Of a stretch of 29,991 bases of DNA, positions 9,050 through 29,322 are shown in pieces. Source of the stretch: a virus; the IMG/VR virus record IMGVR_UViG_3300006921_000085, positions 1 through 29,991 of that record. One strand, given 5' to 3'. Below the pieces are notes generated by a model, which saw nothing but the letters and a program-made list of their open reading frames with translations, ran no database searches and had not been told where the DNA came from. Positions within the stretch are counted from its first letter, which is position 1; the number at the start of each line of letters is the position of its first letter. The position numbers and the translations under genes were made by a program.

Positions 9050-9637
9050 ATGAAAACTTTAGATATTTTTGTTGTTGAACTTGAGAAACAGTTCAAGGAC
9101 ACAATGACAACAGACTCTGGTTTGGAGTTATATGTAGATAACAGGTTTAATGAGTTTGAGCACAGGACTACAGAAGGCCCAGTAATTTGCTCTCCTTTAA
9201 AGTACGACACAGGTGTAAAGAAAGGTGATACACTATACTTTCATCACTTGGTTGTAATTAATGAAGGTCAAGTATTAACGGGTAATAAAAACCATTATCT
9301 AGTTAGATATGATCCTAATCACACTATAAACAATCAAGCTATAGCTTTTAAAAGCAAAAAAACTGGTAAGGTTAAACCCCTAATGGGTTGGGCTCTTTTA
9401 GAGTTTACAGAGCAAGAAGAGTTAGATATTAAATCAGATTTGATAGAAGTCGTAGACTTATCAGAAAAATTACCCACTAAGGGGCGTGTTGCTTTTGATA
9501 GTCCTTGGTTGGAAGAGCTTGGCGTTAAAGCAGGCGATGTGGTAGGATTTAAACAAAATAGAGATTATCGAATCAAGATAGAGGGGAAGGAGTATTACAG
9601 AACCCGTGCAGAAGACCTTCTTTATGTCGAAGCTTAA
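9050..9637 (+). CDS. Tandem GroES-like co-chaperonin
   Basis: The C-terminal half (about residues 112-195) reads as a GroES/Cpn10 domain: GWALLEF, then TKGRVAFDSP, GVKAGDVVGFKQNRDY, IKIEGKEYYRTRAEDLLYVEA. The N-terminal half has the matching elements DIFVVEL, EGPVICSPLKYDTGVKKGDTLYFHHLVV and VRYD, so the 195-residue protein looks like two GroES folds in series. GroES caps the GroEL chamber during folding. Phage versions such as T4 gp31 help fold the major capsid protein. The mobile GroEL-binding loop is not obvious in the first domain (TTDSGLELYV region) and is short in the second. The fold is well supported by motif order; co-chaperonin activity is inferred. Confidence 0.75.
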   Translation: MKTLDIFVVELEKQFKDTMTTDSGLELYVDNRFNEFEHRTTEGPVICSPLKYDTGVKKGDTLYFHHLVVINEGQVLTGNKNHYLVRYDPNHTINNQAIAFKSKKTGKVKPLMGWALLEFTEQEELDIKSDLIEVVDLSEKLPTKGRVAFDSPWLEELGVKAGDVVGFKQNRDYRIKIEGKEYYRTRAEDLLYVEA

Positions 9638-9914
9638 ATTTACTACAGCCTCAGCAGCTAAAAGATTAATGGCCAGCATGGAGGTGGCTATTGATAACAT
9701 GATAGAAGAGATTAAAAAACCTGTAGATCCAGACATTAGCGGTAGCGCTAGAAAGGCTGAACTTCAGTCTATTAAGCAGACCGCAACTGATTGCAAGGAG
9801 TTAATTATAGAGAGACAAAGACTAGAGCAGATGCTAAAGGACTTAAAGTCTAACGGAGAAATAGGAGAGGTTAAAGATTATTCAGGAGGGTTTGCTGAAA
9901 GATTTTCTAAATAA
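9624..9914 (+). CDS. Helical coiled-coil protein, 96 aa
   Basis: The ATG at 9624 overlaps the end of the GroES-like gene by 14 bases and is preferred over a GTG further upstream. The protein is almost wholly helical with heptad patterns (LMASMEVAIDNMIEEI, then LIIERQRLEQMLKDL) and ends in DYSGGFAERFSK. Its size, helical nature and position upstream of the large terminase would fit a small terminase subunit or assembly cofactor, but no helix-turn-helix is evident, so I leave the function open. Confidence 0.6.
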   Translation: MSKLKFTTASAAKRLMASMEVAIDNMIEEIKKPVDPDISGSARKAELQSIKQTATDCKELIIERQRLEQMLKDLKSNGEIGEVKDYSGGFAERFSK

Positions 9915-10267
9915 TGCCTTATAAAAATCCCGAAAAACAAGCTGCTGCTTCTAAAAGACATTACGAGGCTAACAAAGAAAAAGTAAAATTAAGGTCTAAA
10001 AAAAGAAATAGAAAACAATTAAGTATAAATAAAAAATATGTTGATAAAGTAAAAAGTGAGTCTGGGTGTGTAGATTGCGGTGAAACAAATCATATTGTTT
10101 TAGATTTTGATCATGTAAATGGCAATAAATATAAAAGCGTATCTGCTATGGTTCATGAGTATTATTCCGTAAATGCTATACAAAAAGAAATAGATAAATG
10201 CGAAGTTAGATGCGCTAATTGCCATAGACAAGTGACTCACGAAAGACGAAAAAAAAATAAAAGTTAA
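9914..10267 (+). CDS. HNH endonuclease
   Basis: The 117-residue protein has a basic helical N-terminus and then a complete HNH core: CVDC (C52, C55), the catalytic segment LDFDHVNGNK with H67, and CEVRCANCHRQVTHERR, giving the second pair of zinc-binding cysteines (C100, C103) and the closing His. Such nucleases cut DNA with a single metal ion. Free-standing HNH genes near terminases can be homing nucleases or partners in DNA packaging. Here the gene overlaps its neighbour as TAATG, showing it is integrated in the operon rather than inserted in a gene. Confidence 0.9.
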   Translation: MPYKNPEKQAAASKRHYEANKEKVKLRSKKRNRKQLSINKKYVDKVKSESGCVDCGETNHIVLDFDHVNGNKYKSVSAMVHEYYSVNAIQKEIDKCEVRCANCHRQVTHERRKKNKS

Positions 10268-10269
10268 AA

Positions 10270-10632
10270 ATGAAACAGTTTATATTTATATTAATAATGA
10301 TTGCTAGTTTGCCAGTTTTAGGGCAATGTAATCAGCATGTTTTTAGTTCTGTTGGGGCTGAAAAATGGACTAACTTCCAATATCAAGACTGTGATGGTTT
10401 AAGCCACTATTTTGGGCTTCCTGCTGGAGGTTACACTATTATATATTGTGCTGAAATAACCACAGCTTTTGTTTTAAATGGAGATGGGTTTGTATACCCA
10501 CTTCTTCAAGAGCACCCATCTTATGCTTCTTGTGTTCAATTAGTTTGCCAAGGTGATTTCGATGAAGATGGTATAGTAGGCGTTAATGATTTGCAAGTGT
10601 TTTTATTAAATTATGGATTATGCGAAAATTAA
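10270..10632 (+). CDS. Secreted dockerin-like protein, 120 aa
   Basis: A signal peptide (MKQFIFILIMIASLPVLGQ) ends in the Gly-Gln junction typical of Bacteroidetes. The mature protein has several cysteines and ends with GDFDEDGIVGVNDLQVFLLN, a calcium-loop pattern like half of a dockerin repeat (D-x-D-x-D-G-x-V-x-x-x-D-L). Domains of this type are common in secreted proteins of marine Bacteroidetes. Only one loop is present, so classical cohesin binding is doubtful. It overlaps the following T9SS cargo gene by 13 bases, so the two are probably made together and may act as partners outside the cell. Confidence 0.7.
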   Translation: MKQFIFILIMIASLPVLGQCNQHVFSSVGAEKWTNFQYQDCDGLSHYFGLPAGGYTIIYCAEITTAFVLNGDGFVYPLLQEHPSYASCVQLVCQGDFDEDGIVGVNDLQVFLLNYGLCEN

Positions 10633-11759
10633 TATATCTTTTGGCTTTGTGGGCCCCAATAACATCTGCTCAGTGTGATGTAGCTATAACCAGTTGGGAT
10701 GCCGCTACTGGGGATATTGCTATTGAGGCTATAAATAGTGAAAACTGCGGGTGCAATGAATTTACGTCTGAAGGAAACACCTGCGAAACAAGCGCTAGCC
10801 CTCACGTAAACAATAACACAACAGTAAGCCATTTTGTGTTAGGACTTCATGTAGAAGGGTTAGATTACAACTGGCTAGACTGTCTCACTGGAGTTAATCA
10901 TGAAGGATGGACGTTTAAAGTAGCTTCTCTTTTTGGAAATCAAGTTTTAGAAAGTGGCGACACGTGGGAGGCTAATATCTACGATTATAATGGATCCACA
11001 AACGATTGTTGGACAGAGATACTATCAAATGACACCCTATGTACTGAATTAGTCATATGGCAAATCAACTTGTCTCGAACAGCCTCAACAGAGCAAGGCG
11101 GATGGGCGCTAAATCAAGGGTTTAACCAAACGCAGAACTATCCTGACGTAGATCTTTCTAATAACACGGCTGTAAACTGTGCTTTACCTGCGTGTGACAC
11201 CGTGTATGTAGAAACTATTGAATACATAGATGTCATTGAATACATAAGTGTTACTGAATACGTTACGGACACGTTATATATAGATGTTGAGTGGATAACA
11301 ACTGACACGATATATATAACAGAGACTATTACTGAATACGACACTATTGTATTAACGGAAACTGAATATGTTGATGTTATAATAGATAATTATGTTTACG
11401 TTACAGACACCATAACAGAGTTCGTATCTATTACTACATACATTGATTGTGAAACTGGAGAGGAGTGTGGTGAACTTTCACCTTGTGATGAAACTTCTAT
11501 ATATGCGCCTAATGTTGTTACACCTAATGGAGACGGATGGAATGATACGTGGAAGGTAATTGCAGATGGATCCTGTTGGGACCAATGGGAGGTACGTGTG
11601 TACAACAGGTGGGGAGGTCTTGTTTGGATTAGCGCTTCTTCAATAGATGAGTGGGATGCTAATGTTGCAACAGGAACATATGTGTACACTATTGAGGCAC
11701 ATAGCTCTGTTAATGCTAATGTTTTTCAGTTTAACGGGACTGTTACCGTTGTCTATTAA
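10620..11759 (+). CDS. T9SS type B cargo protein, 379 aa
   Basis: The protein has a signal peptide (MRKLIYLLALWAPITSAQC), a Cys-containing globular region to about residue 190, a Thr/Tyr/Val/Glu/Asp repetitive strand-rich stalk (about 194-275, for example TDTIYITETITEYDTI), and a C-terminal domain from about 293. That domain carries YAPNVVTPNGDGWNDTW, VRVYNRWGGLVW and GTYVYTIEA. This is the CHU_C type B sorting domain known from gliding-associated proteins secreted by the type IX system. It implies export through the host inner and outer membranes to the surface or medium. Such a domain is unexpected in a phage gene. Whether the protein is in the virion or shown on infected cells is unknown. 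Confidence 0.85.
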   Translation: MRKLIYLLALWAPITSAQCDVAITSWDAATGDIAIEAINSENCGCNEFTSEGNTCETSASPHVNNNTTVSHFVLGLHVEGLDYNWLDCLTGVNHEGWTFKVASLFGNQVLESGDTWEANIYDYNGSTNDCWTEILSNDTLCTELVIWQINLSRTASTEQGGWALNQGFNQTQNYPDVDLSNNTAVNCALPACDTVYVETIEYIDVIEYISVTEYVTDTLYIDVEWITTDTIYITETITEYDTIVLTETEYVDVIIDNYVYVTDTITEFVSITTYIDCETGEECGELSPCDETSIYAPNVVTPNGDGWNDTWKVIADGSCWDQWEVRVYNRWGGLVWISASSIDEWDANVATGTYVYTIEAHSSVNANVFQFNGTVTVVY

Positions 11760-12057: not shown

Positions 12058-12246
12058 ATGGCAAAGTATAAATGCAGCTGCAACGATGATATTGTAGAAA
12101 AGTCTGGGGTAACAATAAGATTTATTGAAGGTAAGGGAGCTGTGCACGACATAAAGTGCAGTAAGTGTGACGAATACTTAGAGTTAGCTAACCCCAAGTC
12201 TGGGGCTCCCAGCTTTAGGGCAAACAGGTTTGGCCAAACATTTTGA
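12058..12246 (+). CDS. Zinc-ribbon-like protein before the terminase
   Basis: The 62-residue protein has a CSC near residue 6 and CSKC near residue 34, spaced like a small zinc ribbon, and ends with ELANPKSGAPSFRANRFGQ. Proteins of this layout commonly sit immediately before the large terminase gene in marine phages, in my recollection. A packaging-related or DNA-binding role is therefore plausible. The stop codon overlaps the terminase start as TTGA. No enzymatic motif is visible, and the role is not established. Confidence 0.7.
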   Translation: MAKYKCSCNDDIVEKSGVTIRFIEGKGAVHDIKCSKCDEYLELANPKSGAPSFRANRFGQTF

Positions 12247-14366
12247 GTTCTCTCTTACATGTTGAAGGGTATGAAGAGCCAGCTGTTAAGATTTGCCCCA
12301 ATGGTACGGAAGGTGAAGTTATCGAAATCGGTGGGCTACTCATTTGTCTTCCCAAGAAGCCGCCGAAAAAACAAATTTCAGGATTTGACAATTCAAAGTC
12401 GTTGCAAGTGTGGGAAAGAACACATATGCCGAAGGAGCTGTCTCGTATTCGTTCTATGGATGAGTGGGCCGAGATGCCGAGAGAATTTAGAGAAAGGTTT
12501 CGTCCATATATCGAGGAAGAGTTTAGGCGTAGGCGTGAGGGTTTTTGGTTTTATAACAACAGCACAGCTACATATATTACGGGGAGGCACTACATGATGC
12601 TACAGTGGACCAAACTGGACATTGGTTACCCTTACTTTTTAAACTTTCAACGTGAGATATTTTTACACATGGCTGCTTGCGAGACTGATTCTCGTTGTAT
12701 TGGTCAGCTTTATACTAAGTGCCGTCGTTCTGGGTACACCAATATTTGTTCTGCTGTACTTGTCGATGAAGCTACACAGGTTAAAGATAAACTTATGGGG
12801 ATACAGTCGAAGACGGGAAAGGACGCACAAGAAAACATCTTCATGAAGAAGGTGGTTTATATGTTCAGAAACTACCCATTCTTTTTTAAACCTATACAAG
12901 ACGGTACTACTAATCCACGTATGGAGCTAGCTTTTAGAGAGCCGTCAAAACGAATAACTAAAAACAATAAAACTTCCCAAACTGGGGAAGCTCTTAATAC
13001 GGTTATAAATTGGAAAAACACAACTAATAATGCATATGACGGTGAGAAGCTACACTTGTTATATTTAGACGAAGCAGGAAAATGGGAAAGACCTACAGAC
13101 ATAAGAGACGCATGGAGGATTCAGAGGACGTGTTTGATCGTCGGAAGAAAAATCGTGGGGAAAGCTCTGGTCGGAAGCACGGTAAATCCGATGGACAAAG
13201 GTGGAAGTCAGTACAAGGATCTATGGAAGGACTCGAACCCTTTAGAAAGAAACGCCAACGGTAGGACAAGAACAGGGCTATACAGGTTATTTATACCCGC
13301 TTATGAATCTTTAGAAGGGTTTTTTGACGAGTATGGTATGCCCGTAGTAGAAGACCCATCAAGTGTTATAAAAGGTTTGGATGGGGAAGACATAATTTTT
13401 GGTGCAAAAACATATCTTAAAAACGAAAGACAGTCATTAAAAGATGACCCATCAGAATTAAACGAGGTAACTAGGCAGTTTCCTTTTACCACTGATGAGG
13501 CTTTTAGGGATAGTATAGATGGGAGTTTATTTAATATTGGTAGAATATATGAACAGATTCATTATAACGATGAGCTATTCCCAAACCCTGTAGTTGTAGG
13601 TAATTTTGTCTGGAAGGATGGTCAGAAAGACACAGAAGTGGTTTTTAAACCAGATCCAAAAGGAAGGTTTAAGGTGTCTTGGATGCCTCCACCAGAATTA
13701 AGGAATAAAAAAATCCACGAGAAGGGTAAGGTTATGCCAGCAAATATAGCCCTAGGTGTTGGAGGTGTTGACTCATACGATCTTGACGCTACGGTTGATG
13801 GACGAGGCTCAAAAGGAGCACTACACTTATATAATAAATTCCATATGGAGTACCCTTCTAATATGTTTGTTTTAGAGTACGCTTCAAGACCGCCGTTAGC
13901 TAAAATATTTTACGAAGATGTTTTAATGGCTGCGGTTTTTTACGGTTACCCTATATTAATTGAGAACAATAAGTACGGTATTGCAAGGTACTTTGAAACA
14001 AGGGGTTACGACGGATATTTAATGAATAGGCCAGCTCATTTAACTTCAGCAAGTTCTAAAGTTAATGTAAAGACAAAAGGGCTGCCGTCCAATTCTCAAG
14101 ACATTATTCAAGCTCACGCACACGCTATTGAAGCTTATGTACACAACCACATAGGAACTAATCCAGAAACAGGAGAAGTAGGTAATATGTATTTTAACAA
14201 AACTTTAGAAGATTGGATTGGTTTTAATATAAATAATAGAACAAAGTTTGACCTTACTATAAGCTCTGGTTTAGCATTACTTGCTGCTCAAAAATCTAAA
14301 ATAAAAAAGAAGCAATCTAACTTCACGGAGAGGAAATTCTTTAGGAGATATAAGTCTATCTCTTAG
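12243..14366 (+). CDS. terL: Terminase large subunit
   Basis: This is the motor and nuclease that packages DNA into proheads. The ATPase half shows YTKCRRSGYT (157-166) as a deviant Walker A, LLYLDEAGKW (272-281) as Walker B with D276 and E277, and GSTVNP (311-316) as the coupling motif. The nuclease half carries GGVDSYDLDA with D510 and ILIENNKYG with E574, as in the RNase H-like domain of terminases. The length of 707 residues is normal to long. I keep the TTG start at 12243: it overlaps the previous TGA as TTGA, and the first in-frame ATG would remove about 60 residues. The portal gene follows at once. Confidence 0.93.
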   Translation: MSSLLHVEGYEEPAVKICPNGTEGEVIEIGGLLICLPKKPPKKQISGFDNSKSLQVWERTHMPKELSRIRSMDEWAEMPREFRERFRPYIEEEFRRRREGFWFYNNSTATYITGRHYMMLQWTKLDIGYPYFLNFQREIFLHMAACETDSRCIGQLYTKCRRSGYTNICSAVLVDEATQVKDKLMGIQSKTGKDAQENIFMKKVVYMFRNYPFFFKPIQDGTTNPRMELAFREPSKRITKNNKTSQTGEALNTVINWKNTTNNAYDGEKLHLLYLDEAGKWERPTDIRDAWRIQRTCLIVGRKIVGKALVGSTVNPMDKGGSQYKDLWKDSNPLERNANGRTRTGLYRLFIPAYESLEGFFDEYGMPVVEDPSSVIKGLDGEDIIFGAKTYLKNERQSLKDDPSELNEVTRQFPFTTDEAFRDSIDGSLFNIGRIYEQIHYNDELFPNPVVVGNFVWKDGQKDTEVVFKPDPKGRFKVSWMPPPELRNKKIHEKGKVMPANIALGVGGVDSYDLDATVDGRGSKGALHLYNKFHMEYPSNMFVLEYASRPPLAKIFYEDVLMAAVFYGYPILIENNKYGIARYFETRGYDGYLMNRPAHLTSASSKVNVKTKGLPSNSQDIIQAHAHAIEAYVHNHIGTNPETGEVGNMYFNKTLEDWIGFNINNRTKFDLTISSGLALLAAQKSKIKKKQSNFTERKFFRRYKSIS

Positions 14367-14381
14367 AAACGTGTTATTTAG

Positions 14382-14389
14382 TATATTTG
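14382..14389 (+). promoter_or_regulatory. -7 promoter box TATATTTG before portal
   Basis: TATATTTGCA lies 18 bases before the portal ATG at 14408, preceded by TTTAG. A TTG at 14387 inside the box could be misread as a start codon, but it would fall at the edge of or before the transcript. Confidence 0.65.
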
Positions 14390-14407
14390 CATAAATACTA
14401 CCCCCTG

Positions 14408-16870
14408 ATGTATAAAAACGACAATAAAAGTTCAGGCAGCTTTCCCGATCCACTAGCGTCTCAGCAAATAAAAGAAAGTAAGGCCTATGGATTAAAGTAT
14501 GCAAAAGCAATTGAATCTCAGTGGGGAAAAGTCCAAGATTCAGGTTCTCTATACAATAAGAGAAACAAAACTTTTGAAAGAAATAGAGACTACGCTAACG
14601 GAACTCAAGACACAAATATATATAAGCAGATTTTAACAAATCTTGATCCAAACAACTCAGATGGTAGTCTTATTAATTTAGACTATACTCCAGTACCAGT
14701 ACTTCCTAAGTTCGCAAAAATTGTAGCTAATAAGATTTTATCTCGTAATCCTTACCCAAACCTTGAAGCTATTGACCCAATATCTTCTTCTGACAAGAAT
14801 AAAGAAAAACAAAGGATTAAAATTCAGGTCGAGTTAAAGGAGCAGTTAATGCAGCTCAAAAAGGATACTAACGGTTTAGTTTTAGATCAAGATCCTGAAA
14901 TGCTTCCAGACACTTTAGAGGAGGCAGATATATTTTTAGACACAAACATTAAGACTGACGCTGAAATATCAGCTCAGATTGGCACTAATTTAACGCTTTC
15001 TTGGAATAACTTTAATGACGCTATCTACAGAAGGTGTGTTAATGATTTAGTTGCTCTTGGCATGTGTGTTGTTAGACGGACTAACGATCCTAGTTATGGG
15101 ATTAAAACGGAATATGTAGATCCCTGTAACTTTATACATAGCCAAACGGAAGACCCCAATTTTGAGGATCTTGTGTACGCAGGCAACGTTAAAAGGATTA
15201 CTATACAAGAGTTAAAAAGATTAGCAGGGGACAGATTCACAGAGGAGCAGTATAAAGAAATCGCTACTGATTCGGCTAGATCTAAATCACACGATACATC
15301 TAAATTTTCTAGATCTAAGTATGATAATTCCTTAAACAAAAATGCTTATGGGTATGATGACTACACAGTAGAATTACTGGATTTTGAGTTCATGTCTGTA
15401 GACTGCATGCATTTCGAGGAGAAGGAAAATAGACACGGTAATAGAAACTTTTTCTACGAAGGTTTTAACTATAAGGAAAAGACAGGGGGTGTGTTTGAGC
15501 GTAAGCCTCATAGAATGGATATAGTCACCGTTTATGGGGGGTTATATATTTTAGGGACAAAGCATATTTTCGACTACGGGATGAAAACTAATGTTCCTAG
15601 AAATATGCATGACATAGGTAGAACTCGCATGGGTTATTCTGTTGTTGCTACCAACTTTAGAGGGATGATGCCTAAGTCTATGGTAGATGGGTGCGTTGGT
15701 TTTGCTGATATGCTTCAAATAACTCATTTAAAGTTACAGCAATCTATAGCTAAAGCTAAGCCAGATGGTTTAATTATAGATATTGAAGGTTTAGAAAACG
15801 TTCAGCTAGGAAAAGGCGGGGAATTACAACCTCTTGAGCTTCATGACATTTATGAGCAAACTGGTGTTTTTTACTACAGAAGTAAAGACCCAGAGGGCGG
15901 ATTTCAAAACCCACCAGTACGTACTATAGATAATAGTATTAGAAATATAAACGAGCTTATATCTTTATATAATCACTATTTAAGGTTAATTAGAGACACA
16001 ACTGGTATCAATGAAGCTATGGACGCTTCTACACCGAAAGGAGATGCTTTAGTTGGAGTTCAACAACAAGCTATTGCGGCTGGTAATAATGCTATATATG
16101 ATATAACTAACGCTTCTATGATCTTATTTAAAAAGGTCTGTGAGGATGTTGTTAAATGTTTGCAGATCATACCACCAGAATCTGTGCTTATGACTATCTA
16201 CCAAAATGCTATTGGTAAGTCGAACATGGAGGTTTTAAGTTCTTTTAGTGATTTACCTATGTTTAACTTTGGTGTTACTGTTCAGAAAGAAATGGAAGAT
16301 GCTGAAAAAGCATATTTAGAGCAGAATATTCAAATGGCTCTTCAACAGCAGCAAATAGATTTAGAAGATGCAATAGCTATTAGAAATCTAAAGGATGTAA
16401 ATCAAGCTGAAAGATTGCTTATTATCCGTCGCAAAAAGAGGATGGATAAAATGGAGGCTCAGGCTATGCAAAATTCTCAAATGCAAGCTCAACAGGCTCA
16501 ACAGGCTTCTCAAGCAGCTTCGCAAGCTAGGCAACAAGAACTTCAAATGGGAGCTCAACTTGAAGCGCAAAAACTTCAAATGAAGTCTCAACTAGAAATT
16601 CAAGTAGCTCAAGCAAAACACGAGTTGAATAAAGAGATAGAAATGATTAGAGCTGAAGCAACCCTAGGATTTAAGACTGACGACCAAGAGTTTAAAGAGA
16701 AAATTGAAGTTCTTAAAGAGGATAGAAAAGATAGTAGAGTTAAAAAACAAGCTGCTCAACAAAGCAAACTAATGTCTCAAAGAAAAGGTCAAAGAGGCGA
16801 GTTGATAGATCCTGTAGATATGAGTGAAACACAAGAACTAGATGAAACTGTTCAAAACATATTACAATAA
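14408..16870 (+). CDS. Portal protein
   Basis: The 820-residue product follows the terminase and has the layout of phage portals. There is an N-terminal helical region (QIKESKAYGLKYAKAIESQW), an alpha/beta core with an EYVDPCNFIHSQTEDPNF segment typical of portal wing/stem regions, and RDTTGINEAMDASTPKGDAL matching the conserved GIxE...G helix region. A long Gln/Lys/Ala coiled coil occupies the C-terminal 160 residues, as in portals with a barrel. It would form a dodecameric ring at the capsid vertex through which DNA passes. I start at ATG 14408 because the upstream TTG lies inside the promoter box. It overlaps the next gene by one base. Confidence 0.9.
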   Translation: MYKNDNKSSGSFPDPLASQQIKESKAYGLKYAKAIESQWGKVQDSGSLYNKRNKTFERNRDYANGTQDTNIYKQILTNLDPNNSDGSLINLDYTPVPVLPKFAKIVANKILSRNPYPNLEAIDPISSSDKNKEKQRIKIQVELKEQLMQLKKDTNGLVLDQDPEMLPDTLEEADIFLDTNIKTDAEISAQIGTNLTLSWNNFNDAIYRRCVNDLVALGMCVVRRTNDPSYGIKTEYVDPCNFIHSQTEDPNFEDLVYAGNVKRITIQELKRLAGDRFTEEQYKEIATDSARSKSHDTSKFSRSKYDNSLNKNAYGYDDYTVELLDFEFMSVDCMHFEEKENRHGNRNFFYEGFNYKEKTGGVFERKPHRMDIVTVYGGLYILGTKHIFDYGMKTNVPRNMHDIGRTRMGYSVVATNFRGMMPKSMVDGCVGFADMLQITHLKLQQSIAKAKPDGLIIDIEGLENVQLGKGGELQPLELHDIYEQTGVFYYRSKDPEGGFQNPPVRTIDNSIRNINELISLYNHYLRLIRDTTGINEAMDASTPKGDALVGVQQQAIAAGNNAIYDITNASMILFKKVCEDVVKCLQIIPPESVLMTIYQNAIGKSNMEVLSSFSDLPMFNFGVTVQKEMEDAEKAYLEQNIQMALQQQQIDLEDAIAIRNLKDVNQAERLLIIRRKKRMDKMEAQAMQNSQMQAQQAQQASQAASQARQQELQMGAQLEAQKLQMKSQLEIQVAQAKHELNKEIEMIRAEATLGFKTDDQEFKEKIEVLKEDRKDSRVKKQAAQQSKLMSQRKGQRGELIDPVDMSETQELDETVQNILQ

Positions 16871-17304: not shown

Positions 17305-18843
17305 ATGAGCGTAGAAGTTACAACGACATCTGGAAATACTGTAACCGCTACGGTTTCGGGAGGTACTGACGTTACATTTTCAACGACGTCTACTTCTGTT
17401 TCTGTAACAGCTCCTTCATCTTCAAGTATTTTTGTTTCTGAAAAGGGGCCTAAAGGAGACACTGGGGTTACTGGAGCTACGGGCTCTACTGGCGCTACGG
17501 GTGCTACTGGAGCTGCTGGACCTACGTATAGTGTTTCTTGTGTAGATGGCGACAATTCAGATGAAGAAAAAATAAGACTAACGGGAAGTGATTCATCTAC
17601 AGATGACGTGGTTTTAGAAGCTGGCACAGGATTAAGTATAGCAAGAAATAGCGATAAAATTACTTTCACTAATACCGTTTCAGATACTAATACTCAGCTA
17701 TCTACTGAAGAGGTTCAAGATATCGTTGGTGGTATGTTTAGCTCTAATACCGAAACTAGGGTTACAGCTACATACGTTGATGGTGGAGATGGAGCTGGTA
17801 AAATAAATGTGGTTGTTGATGATATGACAGCTAATGACAATACTCAGCTATCTACAGAAGAGGTTCAAGATATTGCAGGCCCTTTAGTTGCTACTGGTGG
17901 AACTAAAACTAACATTGCAGTTACATATGATGATGCTAGCGGCAATATGGATTTTGTTGTAGCTTCAGATTTAAACACTACGGGTAACGCTGGCACAGCT
18001 ACTGCTTTAGCCACAGCGAGAGCAATTAACGGCGTAGACTTTGACGGTACTGCTCCTATAACTGTAACAGCTGCGGGGTCTACGTTATCCGATACAGTAA
18101 CTGTAGCTAAAGGCGGCACTGGATTAACAACTGTAGCCGCTAATACAATATTAACGGGAAACGGGACAAGTGCTTTAACGTCTGAATCTAATTTAACTTT
18201 TGGATCAGACCGTTTAATTATTGGAGCTAATGCTGAGATAACACCTCAGTTAAGGCTTACAAACGACGAAAATACTGTTAATATTGGAGTGTCTGACGCT
18301 TCTGACAATTTAATTATCGGTTCGGCAGATGGCGACTTTGTTGTTAATTGTTCGGGGGATCACAACGTTTTATTTGGTCAAAACAATGCAATAGCCGCAA
18401 AAATAGACACTGACGGTAATTTTAATTTTAATCGTAGGTTTACGGTTACGGGGGATACAGATGGAACGTTTGAGGGTGATGTAGTATATTTTGGTGGTAC
18501 AACATCAATGACGGATGGGAGAATATATCACTATAAATCTGACGGCACTTGGGAGGCCGCTGATGCTTCTACGGTTGCTACTTCTGACGGATTGCTTGCT
18601 GTTGCTTTAGGAGCTGCTTCAGACACTAACGGAATGCTTCTAAGAGGGATGGTTACTTTAGACCATGATGCAGGAGCTGTGGGAGATGTTTTATTTATTA
18701 ATACAGCGGGAAACGGAGCTGCAACTTCTACTGCTCCATCTAGTAATAATAATATAGTAAGAGTTATAGGATATTGCTTGCACGCATCTAATGGACAGAT
18801 TTGGTTTAACCCAGACAATACGTTTGTTGAAGTAACAGCGTAA
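17305..18843 (+). CDS. Tail fibre protein with collagen-like segment
   Basis: Domains in order: a beta-rich head; a collagen-like triplet stretch at residues 48-73 (GPKGDTGVTGATGSTG and on); two repeats beginning NTQLSTEEVQDI at residues 129 and 179, exactly 50 codons apart; a GNAGTATALATARAINGVDF and VAKGGTGLTT segment typical of trimeric fibres; a beta-helix-like middle; and a C-terminal domain from about residue 405 (GLLAVALGAASDTNGMLLRG, then GQIWFNPDNTFVEV) often found at fibre tips in marine phages. It should recognise or contact the host surface. Fibre trimerisation is inferred from the collagen and GGTG motifs. Confidence 0.85.
   Translation: MSVEVTTTSGNTVTATVSGGTDVTFSTTSTSVSVTAPSSSSIFVSEKGPKGDTGVTGATGSTGATGATGAAGPTYSVSCVDGDNSDEEKIRLTGSDSSTDDVVLEAGTGLSIARNSDKITFTNTVSDTNTQLSTEEVQDIVGGMFSSNTETRVTATYVDGGDGAGKINVVVDDMTANDNTQLSTEEVQDIAGPLVATGGTKTNIAVTYDDASGNMDFVVASDLNTTGNAGTATALATARAINGVDFDGTAPITVTAAGSTLSDTVTVAKGGTGLTTVAANTILTGNGTSALTSESNLTFGSDRLIIGANAEITPQLRLTNDENTVNIGVSDASDNLIIGSADGDFVVNCSGDHNVLFGQNNAIAAKIDTDGNFNFNRRFTVTGDTDGTFEGDVVYFGGTTSMTDGRIYHYKSDGTWEAADASTVATSDGLLAVALGAASDTNGMLLRGMVTLDHDAGAVGDVLFINTAGNGAATSTAPSSNNNIVRVIGYCLHASNGQIWFNPDNTFVEVTA
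17691..17880 (+). repeat. 150-bp tandem repeat in the fibre gene
   Basis: A nearly identical stretch of more than 30 bases (starting TACTCAGCTATCTAC) occurs at 17691 and again at 17841, an offset of exactly 150 bp or 50 codons. It encodes the repeated NTQLSTEEVQDI segment and could mediate recombination or length change in the fibre. Confidence 0.7.
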
Positions 18844-19518: not shown

Positions 19519-21840
19519 ATGAAGAACAAAGTTTATTTATTATTAGTTTTATTTTTTTCTATTACAGGATCTTTGTTTTCTCAGCCAGACAATGCTAGCT
19601 GGTTAAATGTAACAGTGCAAACAGATCAATACGGTGGAGAAACGTCTTGGGAGGTGCTAATGGGTGGAAATGTTGTTGCAACAAGCCCTCCTTATCAAGA
19701 CAATGTGTTAAGCAACGTAACTATCCCTTTACCAGCAGGGGATGATTATCAGTTTATTATTTATGACTCTTTTGGAGATGGTATATGTTGTGATTGGGGA
19801 GCAGGGTGGTATAGCTTAACCAACACGTGTGGATTGGAAGTATTTGACTATGAATTTAACACAGCTTCTGATACGACCTCATTTGATTTAATGCCTTGTA
19901 TGCCAGTTCTTTTAGGATGTATGGATGAATCTTCTAATAACTACAACCCTTGGGCTACTGTAGATGACGGCTCATGTAATGTAAACGAGTGTCCTTCTGA
20001 TGAAACGCTTGTTTCTATGTCTCTCACTCTGGATAATTACCCTAGCGAAACAGGGTTTACTTTAGTAGATTTAGCTGCAGGAGAGTTTTATGAGCAGGTG
20101 CTTCCTCAAGAATTTGATTATGGTGACCAAAACGCAACTTTTACATACAACTTTTGTGTTTCTCTAGGTTTTGAACTTATACTTGTAGATACGTATGGAG
20201 ACGGATTAAGTGCTTCTCAATGGGGAGGGACAGACGGTGCTTGTGTTATCACAGCGTGTCAAGACAGCGTTTTATGGGAATTGGAAGATGTGTCTTTCAC
20301 CAGTTTTGATGATGGCAACACTGTTTATTCTGGAGCTATTTTTACAGAGCCTTGTCCACCAATACCGCCAATATACGGATGCACCGATGACGACTACGTA
20401 GATTACAATCCTTATGCTACTGCGTTAGACACATGTGCAACTTTACATGCTTGGGGGTGCATGGATATCAATGCATTTAACTACGACAGTACAGCAACAA
20501 TATCAGATCTAAATAGCCCCTGTCCCATAACTATTACTCTAGAGGATGACGCTGGTGACGGGTGGGGTATGTCTGGAATTGGTATGGTTCAAGAAAATAA
20601 TCAATGGTTATTTACTGTAGGACCAAATGAGTTTTCGCAATCATGGGACATTATGTTAGATTCCAATGAGGATGTAGATATATATTATTTTCAACAAGGG
20701 GGGCAGCAATCATCTGCACAAGAGCTTGCTTTTCAGACCTTGCATAATTCTATATTAGTAACAAATGAGATGGGGGACACCTTGCTTTCAGAGGGGTCTA
20801 ATCCGTTTTTAAATAACGGACAGGGAGCTTTGCAACCTTTTAAAGCGCCTGAATGGAACGTATACAGCTTTACACCTGAATGTGGAGACAGCTGCGAACC
20901 ATACACATATGGATGTGTTGATGATACAGCTCAAAACTACAACCCTAATGTAAACACGGGGGACGAAAGCTGTTACTACGCAGCTGGTTGTACTCAAGCT
21001 GGATACTTAGAATACTATACTCAAGGGTATGAAGCTGACTACGATAATGGTGATTGTGATGTACTTGCGGTATTTGGTTGCATGGATAGTACGGCGTTTA
21101 ATTACAACGAAGAAGCAAATGTAGAAACAGAATGTACTCCTATAATTATTGGTTGCATGAATAATTTAGCGTTTAACTACGATGCTAATGCTAATACAGC
21201 AGGTGACTGTATGCCTTACATATATGGGTGTACAGACCCTACAGCTTTTAACTACAACCCTGAAGCGAATACTGATAATAGTGATTGTGAGCCAGTAACC
21301 TTAGGATGCACTGATGAACAAGCGTTAAACTACGACCCATTAGCTAATACAGATAACGGTGGTTGCGTTGAAGTATTGGTTGACTGTACGGACCCTATTG
21401 CTGTGAATTACAATGAATTAGCTAACACTCCTAACAACGATTTATGTTTATACGACGCAGGTTGTATTGGCGAGGCTGGCGATCCATACTACTTAAATGA
21501 CTCATGTTACGCTTGGATTATAGATATAGATCCATACTGCTGTGAGGTAGCTTGGGATGGGGCTTGTGTTGAGTTATATGGTTATTGTGAATCTGGATGG
21601 CCATCTGGTGTATACGATGTAGATGGTATATATAATGTTTATCCTAATCCAGTATTAGACATTTTAAACATTCAGACTTCGCTAGACGTAATTACAGAGG
21701 TATATAACGCACTTGGCCAGATTGTAGTGTTAGGGACTAGAGAAAAAAGAATTGACCTTACAAACCTTCCTAAAGGCTTTTATCAGGTTGTTATAAAATA
21801 TAACGATAGAACTTCAATTAAAAAAATAATTAAATCATGA
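19519..21840 (+). CDS. T9SS type A cargo, multi-repeat secreted protein
   Basis: The 773-residue protein has a signal peptide ending GSLFSQ and two or three beta domains with Asp/Gly-rich calcium-type turns (FIIYDSFGDGICCDWG; ELILVDTYGDGLS; DDAGDGWGMSG). It then has about nine or ten Cys repeats of the form GCTDPTAFNYNPEANTDN, spread over residues about 130-650, and a Cys-rich unit DPYCCEVAWDGACVELYGYC. The end (YNVYPNPVLDILNIQTS...GFYQVVIKY...IKKIIKS) is the type A T9SS sorting domain. All of these are hallmarks of large surface or secreted proteins of marine Bacteroidetes. It has its own promoter and is followed by an ATGA overlap with the next gene. How the phage uses it is unknown. Confidence 0.85.
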   Translation: MKNKVYLLLVLFFSITGSLFSQPDNASWLNVTVQTDQYGGETSWEVLMGGNVVATSPPYQDNVLSNVTIPLPAGDDYQFIIYDSFGDGICCDWGAGWYSLTNTCGLEVFDYEFNTASDTTSFDLMPCMPVLLGCMDESSNNYNPWATVDDGSCNVNECPSDETLVSMSLTLDNYPSETGFTLVDLAAGEFYEQVLPQEFDYGDQNATFTYNFCVSLGFELILVDTYGDGLSASQWGGTDGACVITACQDSVLWELEDVSFTSFDDGNTVYSGAIFTEPCPPIPPIYGCTDDDYVDYNPYATALDTCATLHAWGCMDINAFNYDSTATISDLNSPCPITITLEDDAGDGWGMSGIGMVQENNQWLFTVGPNEFSQSWDIMLDSNEDVDIYYFQQGGQQSSAQELAFQTLHNSILVTNEMGDTLLSEGSNPFLNNGQGALQPFKAPEWNVYSFTPECGDSCEPYTYGCVDDTAQNYNPNVNTGDESCYYAAGCTQAGYLEYYTQGYEADYDNGDCDVLAVFGCMDSTAFNYNEEANVETECTPIIIGCMNNLAFNYDANANTAGDCMPYIYGCTDPTAFNYNPEANTDNSDCEPVTLGCTDEQALNYDPLANTDNGGCVEVLVDCTDPIAVNYNELANTPNNDLCLYDAGCIGEAGDPYYLNDSCYAWIIDIDPYCCEVAWDGACVELYGYCESGWPSGVYDVDGIYNVYPNPVLDILNIQTSLDVITEVYNALGQIVVLGTREKRIDLTNLPKGFYQVVIKYNDRTSIKKIIKS

Positions 21841-27879: not shown

Positions 27880-29322
27880 ATGGCTACTACTACTGGGGCT
27901 TCACCTTTGAATGCTGCACCTGCAGATTTAAGGTTAACGCCCGAATCATATACTACGGTTGATGGCTTACTAAAAGCGAATAAAGATTTCGTTATTCCTG
28001 AGCTAGTTCAATCATACGGTGATCAAGGTATCACTGGTTTTTTACGTTTAACTGGAGCTGTTAATAGCGGCGGAACTTCTGACCAAGTTGATTGGTGGGA
28101 GGCAGGCCGTCGTCATACAAAGATTGACGCTGTTACTTTTGCATCTGCTGCTGCTGGTTCTGATGGAGCTGCTGCTGGTACTGTTCAAGCTACAGTTGAT
28201 ACATCTGCTATGGCTGCTGCTGGAGAGCAGTCCGCACACGTTTCTAGCTTCCTGCAACCAAGTGACGTTGTAATGTCTGTAAATACAGGAAGTCGATACA
28301 TTGTTCAGTCAGCTTCTACAGCTACTGATCCTGTAATTGTTCTTGAGCGTCTTGACGGTGGTAACGGAGCTCCTTCTGAAGCTACTACTACTAGTACTGA
28401 GACTCTTATTCACTTGGGAAATATGTATGCTCAAGGAACGGATCAACCTACTAAATTTACTGATCCTGATATTGTGAAAAGAAAGAATCCATTTATGATT
28501 GTTAAAGATCGTTATCAAGTAAATGGTTCTCAAGCTACAAATATTGGTTGGGTTAACATGGGTGGAGGAGATTTCCGCTGGTTTATGTACGGGGAGCAAG
28601 AGGCTCGTAAGCGTTTTGAAGACCGTCGTGAAATGATGATGCTTTTCGCTGAGAAAAACGCTGCTACAGTTGACGACTCTGCTGACTTGTCTGATAACAT
28701 CGCGGGTTCTGAAGGTTATTTCTCTGCTATTGAAAGTCGTGGAATTAACATAAGCAACGCTAACGCTAATCCAATTGATTCTTTTGCTGAGTTTGACGAT
28801 ATTATTATTGAGCTTGATAAGAACGGTGCTACTTCTGAGTACGCTATGTACGTAAACAGAAAGCAAGATTTAGCTATCGACGATATGCTTGCTTCAGGTA
28901 TTTCTACTGGAACTACTGCTGGTCTAGCTGGACAGTTCGGTGCGTTTAACAACGATGCTGACATGGCTGTTAAGCTTGGATTTAAGTCGTTTACTCGTGG
29001 TGGGTACACATTCCACAAGCATGACTGGAAGCTTCTAAACGATCCAACTCTTCTTGGTGCTTCTACTAAGTATCAAGGAGCTATGATCCCTATGTCTCAA
29101 ATTGCAGATGCTCGCACAGGTGTTAAAGCACCTTCTTTAGCAATGTACTACAAAGAGGCTAACGGATATAATCGTGAAATGGAGCACTGGGTAACTGGTG
29201 GAGGAGTTTTAGGACATAATAACAATGGAGATGCTGGTAAGGACGTTGCTACGTTCCACTACCGTTCAGAAATTGCTCTTTGTGTTCGTGCTGCTAACCA
29301 ACACGTAGTTATTAAAGGATAA
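27880..29322 (+). CDS. Major capsid protein
   Basis: The gene right after the scaffold encodes a 480-residue, balanced acidic protein that starts ATTTGASPLNAAPADLRLTP and contains VIPELVQSYGDQGITGFLRL, a typical N-arm/core boundary for HK97-type capsids, and ends in GGVLGHNNNGDAG, TFHYRSEIALCVRAANQHVV. Codon choice is strongly biased (CGT for Arg, GCT, GGT), unlike the AGA-rich neighbours, as expected of the most highly made phage protein. It would form the icosahedral shell. The Gly/Ser-rich insert around residues 65-130 may be an extra surface domain. The identity rests on position, length and codon bias. Confidence 0.85.
   Translation: MATTTGASPLNAAPADLRLTPESYTTVDGLLKANKDFVIPELVQSYGDQGITGFLRLTGAVNSGGTSDQVDWWEAGRRHTKIDAVTFASAAAGSDGAAAGTVQATVDTSAMAAAGEQSAHVSSFLQPSDVVMSVNTGSRYIVQSASTATDPVIVLERLDGGNGAPSEATTTSTETLIHLGNMYAQGTDQPTKFTDPDIVKRKNPFMIVKDRYQVNGSQATNIGWVNMGGGDFRWFMYGEQEARKRFEDRREMMMLFAEKNAATVDDSADLSDNIAGSEGYFSAIESRGINISNANANPIDSFAEFDDIIIELDKNGATSEYAMYVNRKQDLAIDDMLASGISTGTTAGLAGQFGAFNNDADMAVKLGFKSFTRGGYTFHKHDWKLLNDPTLLGASTKYQGAMIPMSQIADARTGVKAPSLAMYYKEANGYNREMEHWVTGGGVLGHNNNGDAGKDVATFHYRSEIALCVRAANQHVVIKG

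Follow-up and report, generated by a model that had tools for sequence, protein, structure and literature searches.

Co-chaperonins that carry two GroES domains in a single chain are treated as a speciality of plastids, and they pose a puzzle of symmetry, namely how even-numbered lids sit on the seven-fold GroEL. The stretch of viral DNA analyzed here (29,991 nucleotides, positions 1 to 29,991 of IMG/VR record IMGVR_UViG_3300006921_000085; hereafter the window) contains a gene that was initially annotated, from its sequence, as encoding such a double co-chaperonin. We asked whether both halves of the protein are GroES domains, and what a protein of this kind may do for a phage. The explanation that we consider best, and likely to be correct, is that of a Cpn20-like lid for GroEL, of either the host or the phage, which would fold phage head proteins.

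Table 1. Features of the window discussed in the text (feature, position, strand, basis or remark)
Double-domain co-chaperonin gene	9050..9637	+	ATG start, 195 aa; ORF call
N-terminal GroES-fold domain, ~residues 1-102	9050..9355	+	AF2 alone, VIA, shuffle test
N-domain mobile-loop region, residues 17-43	9098..9178	+	T..G-L-x-L at residues 21-27 (TDSGLEL)
C-terminal GroES domain, ~residues 103-195	9356..9634	+	Pfam Cpn10, hhalign, VIA
C-domain mobile-loop region, residues 122-142	9413..9475	+	blocks of residues 121-140 with pLDDT 55-57
Terminase large subunit (TerL)	12243..14366	+	phrog_6681, E 9.1e-205; downstream, same orientation
Portal protein	14387..16870	+	phrog_6547, E 3.4e-199
Virion structural (head and packaging) protein	27880..29322	+	phrog_13704, E 4.2e-112

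Two predicted GroES-fold domains in one chain

The protein matched PHROG 13932, "co-chaperonin GroES", with residues 1-194 aligned to positions 1-199 of the 200-position profile (E = 2.7e-52). When a full-length AF2 model (34 aligned sequences; pLDDT 82.2, pTM 0.79) was compared to the PDB with Foldseek, chain 7ekq_R ranked first, with an alignment spanning the entire protein (E = 8.6e-5, TM 0.56), and was the only match below 0.001; VIA aligned the model to the same chain with Z = 9.8 over 170 residues (rmsd 4.2). This 194-residue chain belongs to an entry titled CrClpP-S2c, a Chlamydomonas ClpP complex, and judging from its length and from the available text of PMC8889267 it is probably the double co-chaperonin CPN20 or CPN23.

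Examined separately, the C-terminal half was found to match GroES by sequence, with a Pfam Cpn10 hit (PF00166; residues 155-191, E = 7.1e-5; 23.2 bits, cut-off 21.1) and an hhalign score of 96-98% against a bacterial GroES profile; its domain aligned to 1wnr_A with a VIA Z of 8.5. Since a single good domain could fill the list of structural matches of the full-length model, the N-terminal half was also modelled alone (82 sequences). This model reached a pLDDT of 90.6, and its first-ranking Foldseek match was a GroES (E = 0.018, probability 0.99). The first 16 PDB entries in its VIA list were all GroES, Cpn10, gp31 or 7ekq_R (Z 7.3-5.0, alignments of 64-87 residues); alcohol and quinone dehydrogenases came next, with Z of at most 4.8. 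A VIA Z of about 7 is not high in itself, and the argument for the N half lies in the uniformity of this list and in the near-full coverage of the domain.

The sequence signal of the N half is weak. No Pfam Cpn10 match was found in the N half of the window protein, and among 82 N halves 4 matched Cpn10 at E ≤ 1 (best 2.9e-4). Against bacterial GroES, hhalign scored the N halves at 0.3-28%, which is not significant, and at up to 59% with phage single-domain proteins added, the score varying with profile and mode. The profile phrog_3188 matched the N half in relative L099 (residues 14-76, 3.4e-5) and in Elemovirus (residues 14-64, 3e-4), and two Cpn10 stretches within one ORF were found in all six records of the L056 relatives. 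In a shuffle test with a single-GroES HMM, 12 of 3000 shuffles scored above the N half of the window protein; the N halves of two relatives (L048, L051) exceeded all 3000, and those of three others (L141, L257, L259) were no better than many of the 3000. A search of PDB sequences with the N-half profile retrieved no co-chaperonin (best match a ribosomal protein, E = 0.082), and profile-profile comparison of the N and C halves (18.6% and 31.5% local, 2.1% global) gave no clear internal sequence repeat.

The model of the N half points to a GroES fold (AF2, Foldseek and VIA), as the initial annotation had claimed for both halves. With the C half recognized by sequence and model, and the N half by model with a weak sequence signal, structure prediction confirms the proposed architecture of two GroES-fold domains in series within one chain: both halves are predicted to be GroES-like, rather than one half alone or a barrel of another kind. 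The analogy to plastid Cpn20 that had been drawn at the outset likewise stands, with 7ekq_R as a full-length match and the domains in tandem. Chance resemblance was considered as well, and is ruled out by the PHROG 13932 match, the VIA list of the N half and the shuffle test.

In a tree of individual domains, whose rows span only about 90 residues and which includes no plant sequence, all N halves grouped together (support 87), as did all C halves (79), the support being modest; these groupings would fit one fusion early in the double family. The roof segment was shorter in 78 of 83 N domains, having 5-7 residues (a count that includes one residue more than the lengths of singles) versus 9 residues for the majority of host GroES proteins and 14 for that of E. 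coli.

Mobile loops of the two domains

The mobile loops had initially been described as degenerate, a description that we revise. The N loop keeps the GroES form T..G-L-x-L, comparable to TASGIII in host GroES and TSSGLYL in the single Cpn10 of Elemovirus, and the pattern T..[GNS]-hydrophobic-x-hydrophobic was found in 77 of 85 family members, the eight others being the L139/L141/L142 group and the L056 group. The C loop of the window protein is still long and has a weaker, less regular pattern than the N loop, and its low pLDDT is as would be expected of a flexible loop. A much shorter C loop was found in Elemovirus, ctfjg026 and Panino, and it may be that not every domain binds GroEL.

These observations bear on a possible division of labor, in which the C domain alone would be the active GroES and the N domain would act as a structural spacer, linking the lid subunits to one another. 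The far better GroES match of the C half agrees with such a division, but the N loop is well conserved, with T21, G24, L27 and D30 nearly invariant over 82 N halves, and the loop that has shrunk in Elemovirus, ctfjg026 and Panino is that of the C domain; we consider a mere spacer role of the N domain unlikely.

A further segment, GDxxxFHH (or GDxxxxHH; N-domain residues 59-66, window positions 9224-9247), carries both histidines in most N halves, also in the distant groups of Elemovirus, Panino and phi38:1. The pair is not kept in phi19:3, and in the L056 group the second histidine is replaced by tyrosine.

Genomic neighbourhood

The link to head genes that was initially suggested agrees with the position of the gene, as terminase and portal genes lie downstream of it (Table 1). 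Of the 41 loci with at least 3 kb of downstream sequence, 40 have TerL there in the same orientation, and the same order was seen in phi38:1, Elemovirus, ctfjg026 and Panino. In Gundel, whose terminase and portal are related, there was no double gene before TerL and no phrog_3188 match. Because of this gene position, and by analogy with T4 gp31 and gp23, the client of the double would be a head or packaging protein; the head and packaging protein listed in Table 1 is one possible client.

The constant place before TerL could also be explained if the two GroES folds had acquired a new task in head or packaging assembly, for example as a terminase or portal adaptor, with no role at GroEL; the divergent N half, with its conserved GDxxxxHH, hints at a special surface. 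However, the N loop retains its GroEL-contact pattern in most of the family, the C loop of the window protein is still long and of low confidence in the model, and chaperonin genes co-occur with the double in relatives (see below). We regard an assembly factor of this kind as quite unlikely.

Several other genes of the window encode proteins with recognizable features. Positions 9914-10267, which lie between the genes of the double co-chaperonin and the terminase, encode a small Cys/His-rich protein that resembles HNH endonucleases by eye (Pfam HNH 0.091, below the cut-off). Positions 10270-10632 encode a protein of 120 aa that has an apparent signal peptide and, towards the C end, a motif resembling a DxDxDG calcium loop by eye (weak TSP_3 match, 0.089). 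After the portal gene, positions 17305-18843 encode a 512-aa protein that matches tail-fibre PHROGs and contains a stretch weakly resembling collagen (Pfam 3.8e-4, below the cut-off). The proteins encoded at 10620-11759 and 19519-21840 have sorting domains for type IX secretion at their C-terminal ends (Pfam CHU_C 9.1e-15 and Por_Secre_tail 3.5e-11). Such domains are an unusual cargo for a phage and suggest host-dependent export.

Distribution and host

The double gene is widespread in marine viral contigs: one scan of IMG/VR yielded 61 loci of the family, and a profile-based scan at least 459 stretches. Among isolates it was found in the Cellulophaga phages phi19:3, 13:2, 18:3, 46:3, phi38:1, phi40:1 and Calle, with phi19:3 recorded in the Pachyviridae and phi38:1 and Calle in the Pervagoviridae, and further in Elemovirus (68 Flavobacterium records), in Maribacter phage Panino and in the uncultured ctfjg026. 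A tblastn search of the phages collection with the L056 protein gave no match. The notion, implied by the initial annotation, that phage co-chaperonins are only single does not hold, as the double family is already present in PHROGs and in the annotations of Cellulophaga and Flavobacterium phages, which in GenBank read "chaperonin cpn10" or "co-chaperonin GroES".

One scan of genome_contigs retrieved two relatives, both in Bacteroidota MAGs (Ekhidna and Flavobacteriales). Out of 296 Bacteroidota genomes, 25 were matched, 24 of them only across the region of the C half (start at residue 75 or later), representing ordinary GroES; the one full-length match was in an Ekhidna MAG (G022) that holds a terminase-bearing phage contig. 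The double therefore looks phage-borne, and on the same counts a cellular origin in present Bacteroidota genomes was rejected. In many Bacteroidota relatives of this MAG (L102, L133 and similar), the ordinary GroES is joined by another Cpn10-like ORF, about 125-175 aa in length. Because the window encodes type IX secretion sorting domains, and because relatives infect Flavobacteriaceae, its phage very likely has a member of the Bacteroidota as host.

Chaperonin partners in related phages

We searched the relatives for partner genes with the profiles PF00166, phrog_3188 and PF00118. GroEL, a single Cpn10 and the double Cpn10 were found together in five records (phi38:1, Calle_1, Elemovirus elemoF, ctfjg026 and Panino), a set that resembles that of plastids; this co-occurrence is the new part of our findings. 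In another five (phi19:3, 13:2, 18:3, 46:3 and the 72.8-kb contig G351) the single and the double were found and GroEL was not. In 25 larger records belonging to the window's clade and 6 from the L056 group the double was found alone, although most double-only records may be fragments. Terminal repeats were searched in nine records including the window, which has none; exact repeats, of 90 bases in G337 and 91 in G341, were found at the termini of two, and in G339 about 77 bases are shared between the ends. These three are for that reason probably complete genomes. A more sensitive scan of the three revealed no second Cpn10 below E 0.5.

The phage GroELs of L095, L264 and L265 are 37-40% identical to E. 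coli GroEL. All three keep the ATPase positions D52, D87 and D398; several positions of helices H and I differ, and the GGM tail is missing.

That the double caps host ClpP instead of GroEL, blocking degradation during infection, is very improbable: the best structural match, 7ekq, is indeed a ClpP complex, and the accessible part of PMC8889267 describes a CPN11/CPN20/CPN23 heterotetramer capping Chlamydomonas ClpP and cites work on ClpP inhibition, but the matched chain is a plastid co-chaperonin with a known role also at Cpn60, and single Cpn10 and GroEL genes alongside the double in five records fit GroEL better.

A proposed lid for GroEL

We return to the Cpn20-like lid, of which GroEL binding, ring composition and client are what we infer. 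Each of the two GroES domains would fill one lid position, closing GroEL over its client, and the double, made together with packaging and head genes, would redirect GroEL to fold at least one large phage head protein. Phages of the window's clade would use the GroEL of the host, and Elemovirus, Panino, ctfjg026, phi38:1 and Calle the one that they encode. Seven lid positions could be filled by three doubles and one single GroES, the latter supplied by the phage in the relatives and by the host in the window's clade, or three or four doubles could form a ring that is asymmetric. Since no phage single or GroEL was found in the 25 larger records, a 3+1 ring in the window's clade would depend on host GroES.

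Precedents for such lids exist. In the portion of PMC5780408 available, plastid Cpn10 and Cpn20 are described as forming functional hetero-oligomers of seven GroES-like domains, concatamers of six and eight domains also work with GroEL, and T4 gp31/gp23 is touched on; Cpn20 of P. falciparum alone replaces GroES in E. coli, as the accessible text of PMC3542282 reports. Given these precedents, phages with both a single and a double could build 3+1 rings, and double-only phages could either recruit host GroES or use asymmetric lids.

A more far-reaching scenario, which we offer tentatively as possible though doubtful, is that podoviruses of Bacteroidota independently evolved the GroEL/single/double set with a 3+1 lid of fixed order, and that the window's clade then dropped GroEL and the single, leaving a lid that is either chimeric with host GroES or deliberately asymmetric and is dedicated to one head protein.

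The phage doubles represent a second, probably independent, and widespread occurrence of double co-chaperonins. Some of the phages that carry them have culturable hosts (Cellulophaga, Flavobacterium, Maribacter), and the natural series from GroEL with single and double to the double alone makes the symmetry question testable by comparison.

Comparison with known systems

Chaperonin genes of these phages have been noted before. In the available sections of the respective papers, the core genes of the Pervagoviridae include "chaperonin cpn10", with no indication of which cpn10 is meant (PMC8776804), GroEL and GroES are reported in Panino (PMC11590407), and chaperonins are placed near certain phage polymerases (PMC11348598). 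The family itself is thus already known from PHROGs and GenBank; for the tandem architecture and the plastid-like set we found no description in the partially accessible open-licence PMC literature, which is a weak negative.

Among phage proteins, the closest are those of PHROG 13932 (phi19:3, phi38:1 and Calle), full-length homologues in the same place before the terminase, with 25-28% identity to the window protein (phages collection); all three phages also encode a single Cpn10, and two of them, phi38:1 and Calle, a GroEL. PHROG 3188 is in contrast a 96-position family of single-domain phage GroES, encoded as a separate gene in the same relatives; several doubles match it in their C half, and two in their N half. 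T4 gp31 is likewise a phage co-chaperonin with the GroES fold, to which both window halves align (1g31_A; Z 6.6 with the full model over residues 101-195, and 5.3 with the N half), but gp31 is a single domain and its identity in the VIA alignments is 8-9%.

The closest parallel is found in the plastid Cpn20/Cpn21/CPN23 proteins (Arabidopsis, Chlamydomonas, and Pf-Cpn20 of the apicoplast), which likewise consist of two head-to-tail GroES domains in about 195 residues, provide in 7ekq_R the solved structure that comes closest along the entire chain, and are accompanied by a single Cpn10 and Cpn60, as the double is in many phage relatives. The phage protein differs in being encoded by a phage gene, in the shorter roof segment of most of its N domains, and in being no closer in sequence to Cpn20 than to single Cpn10; when the A1 profile was searched against the PDB (E ≤ 1), single Cpn10s were the only co-chaperonins listed, and 7ekq was not among them. 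The likeness between the phage double and plastid Cpn20 is probably convergent.
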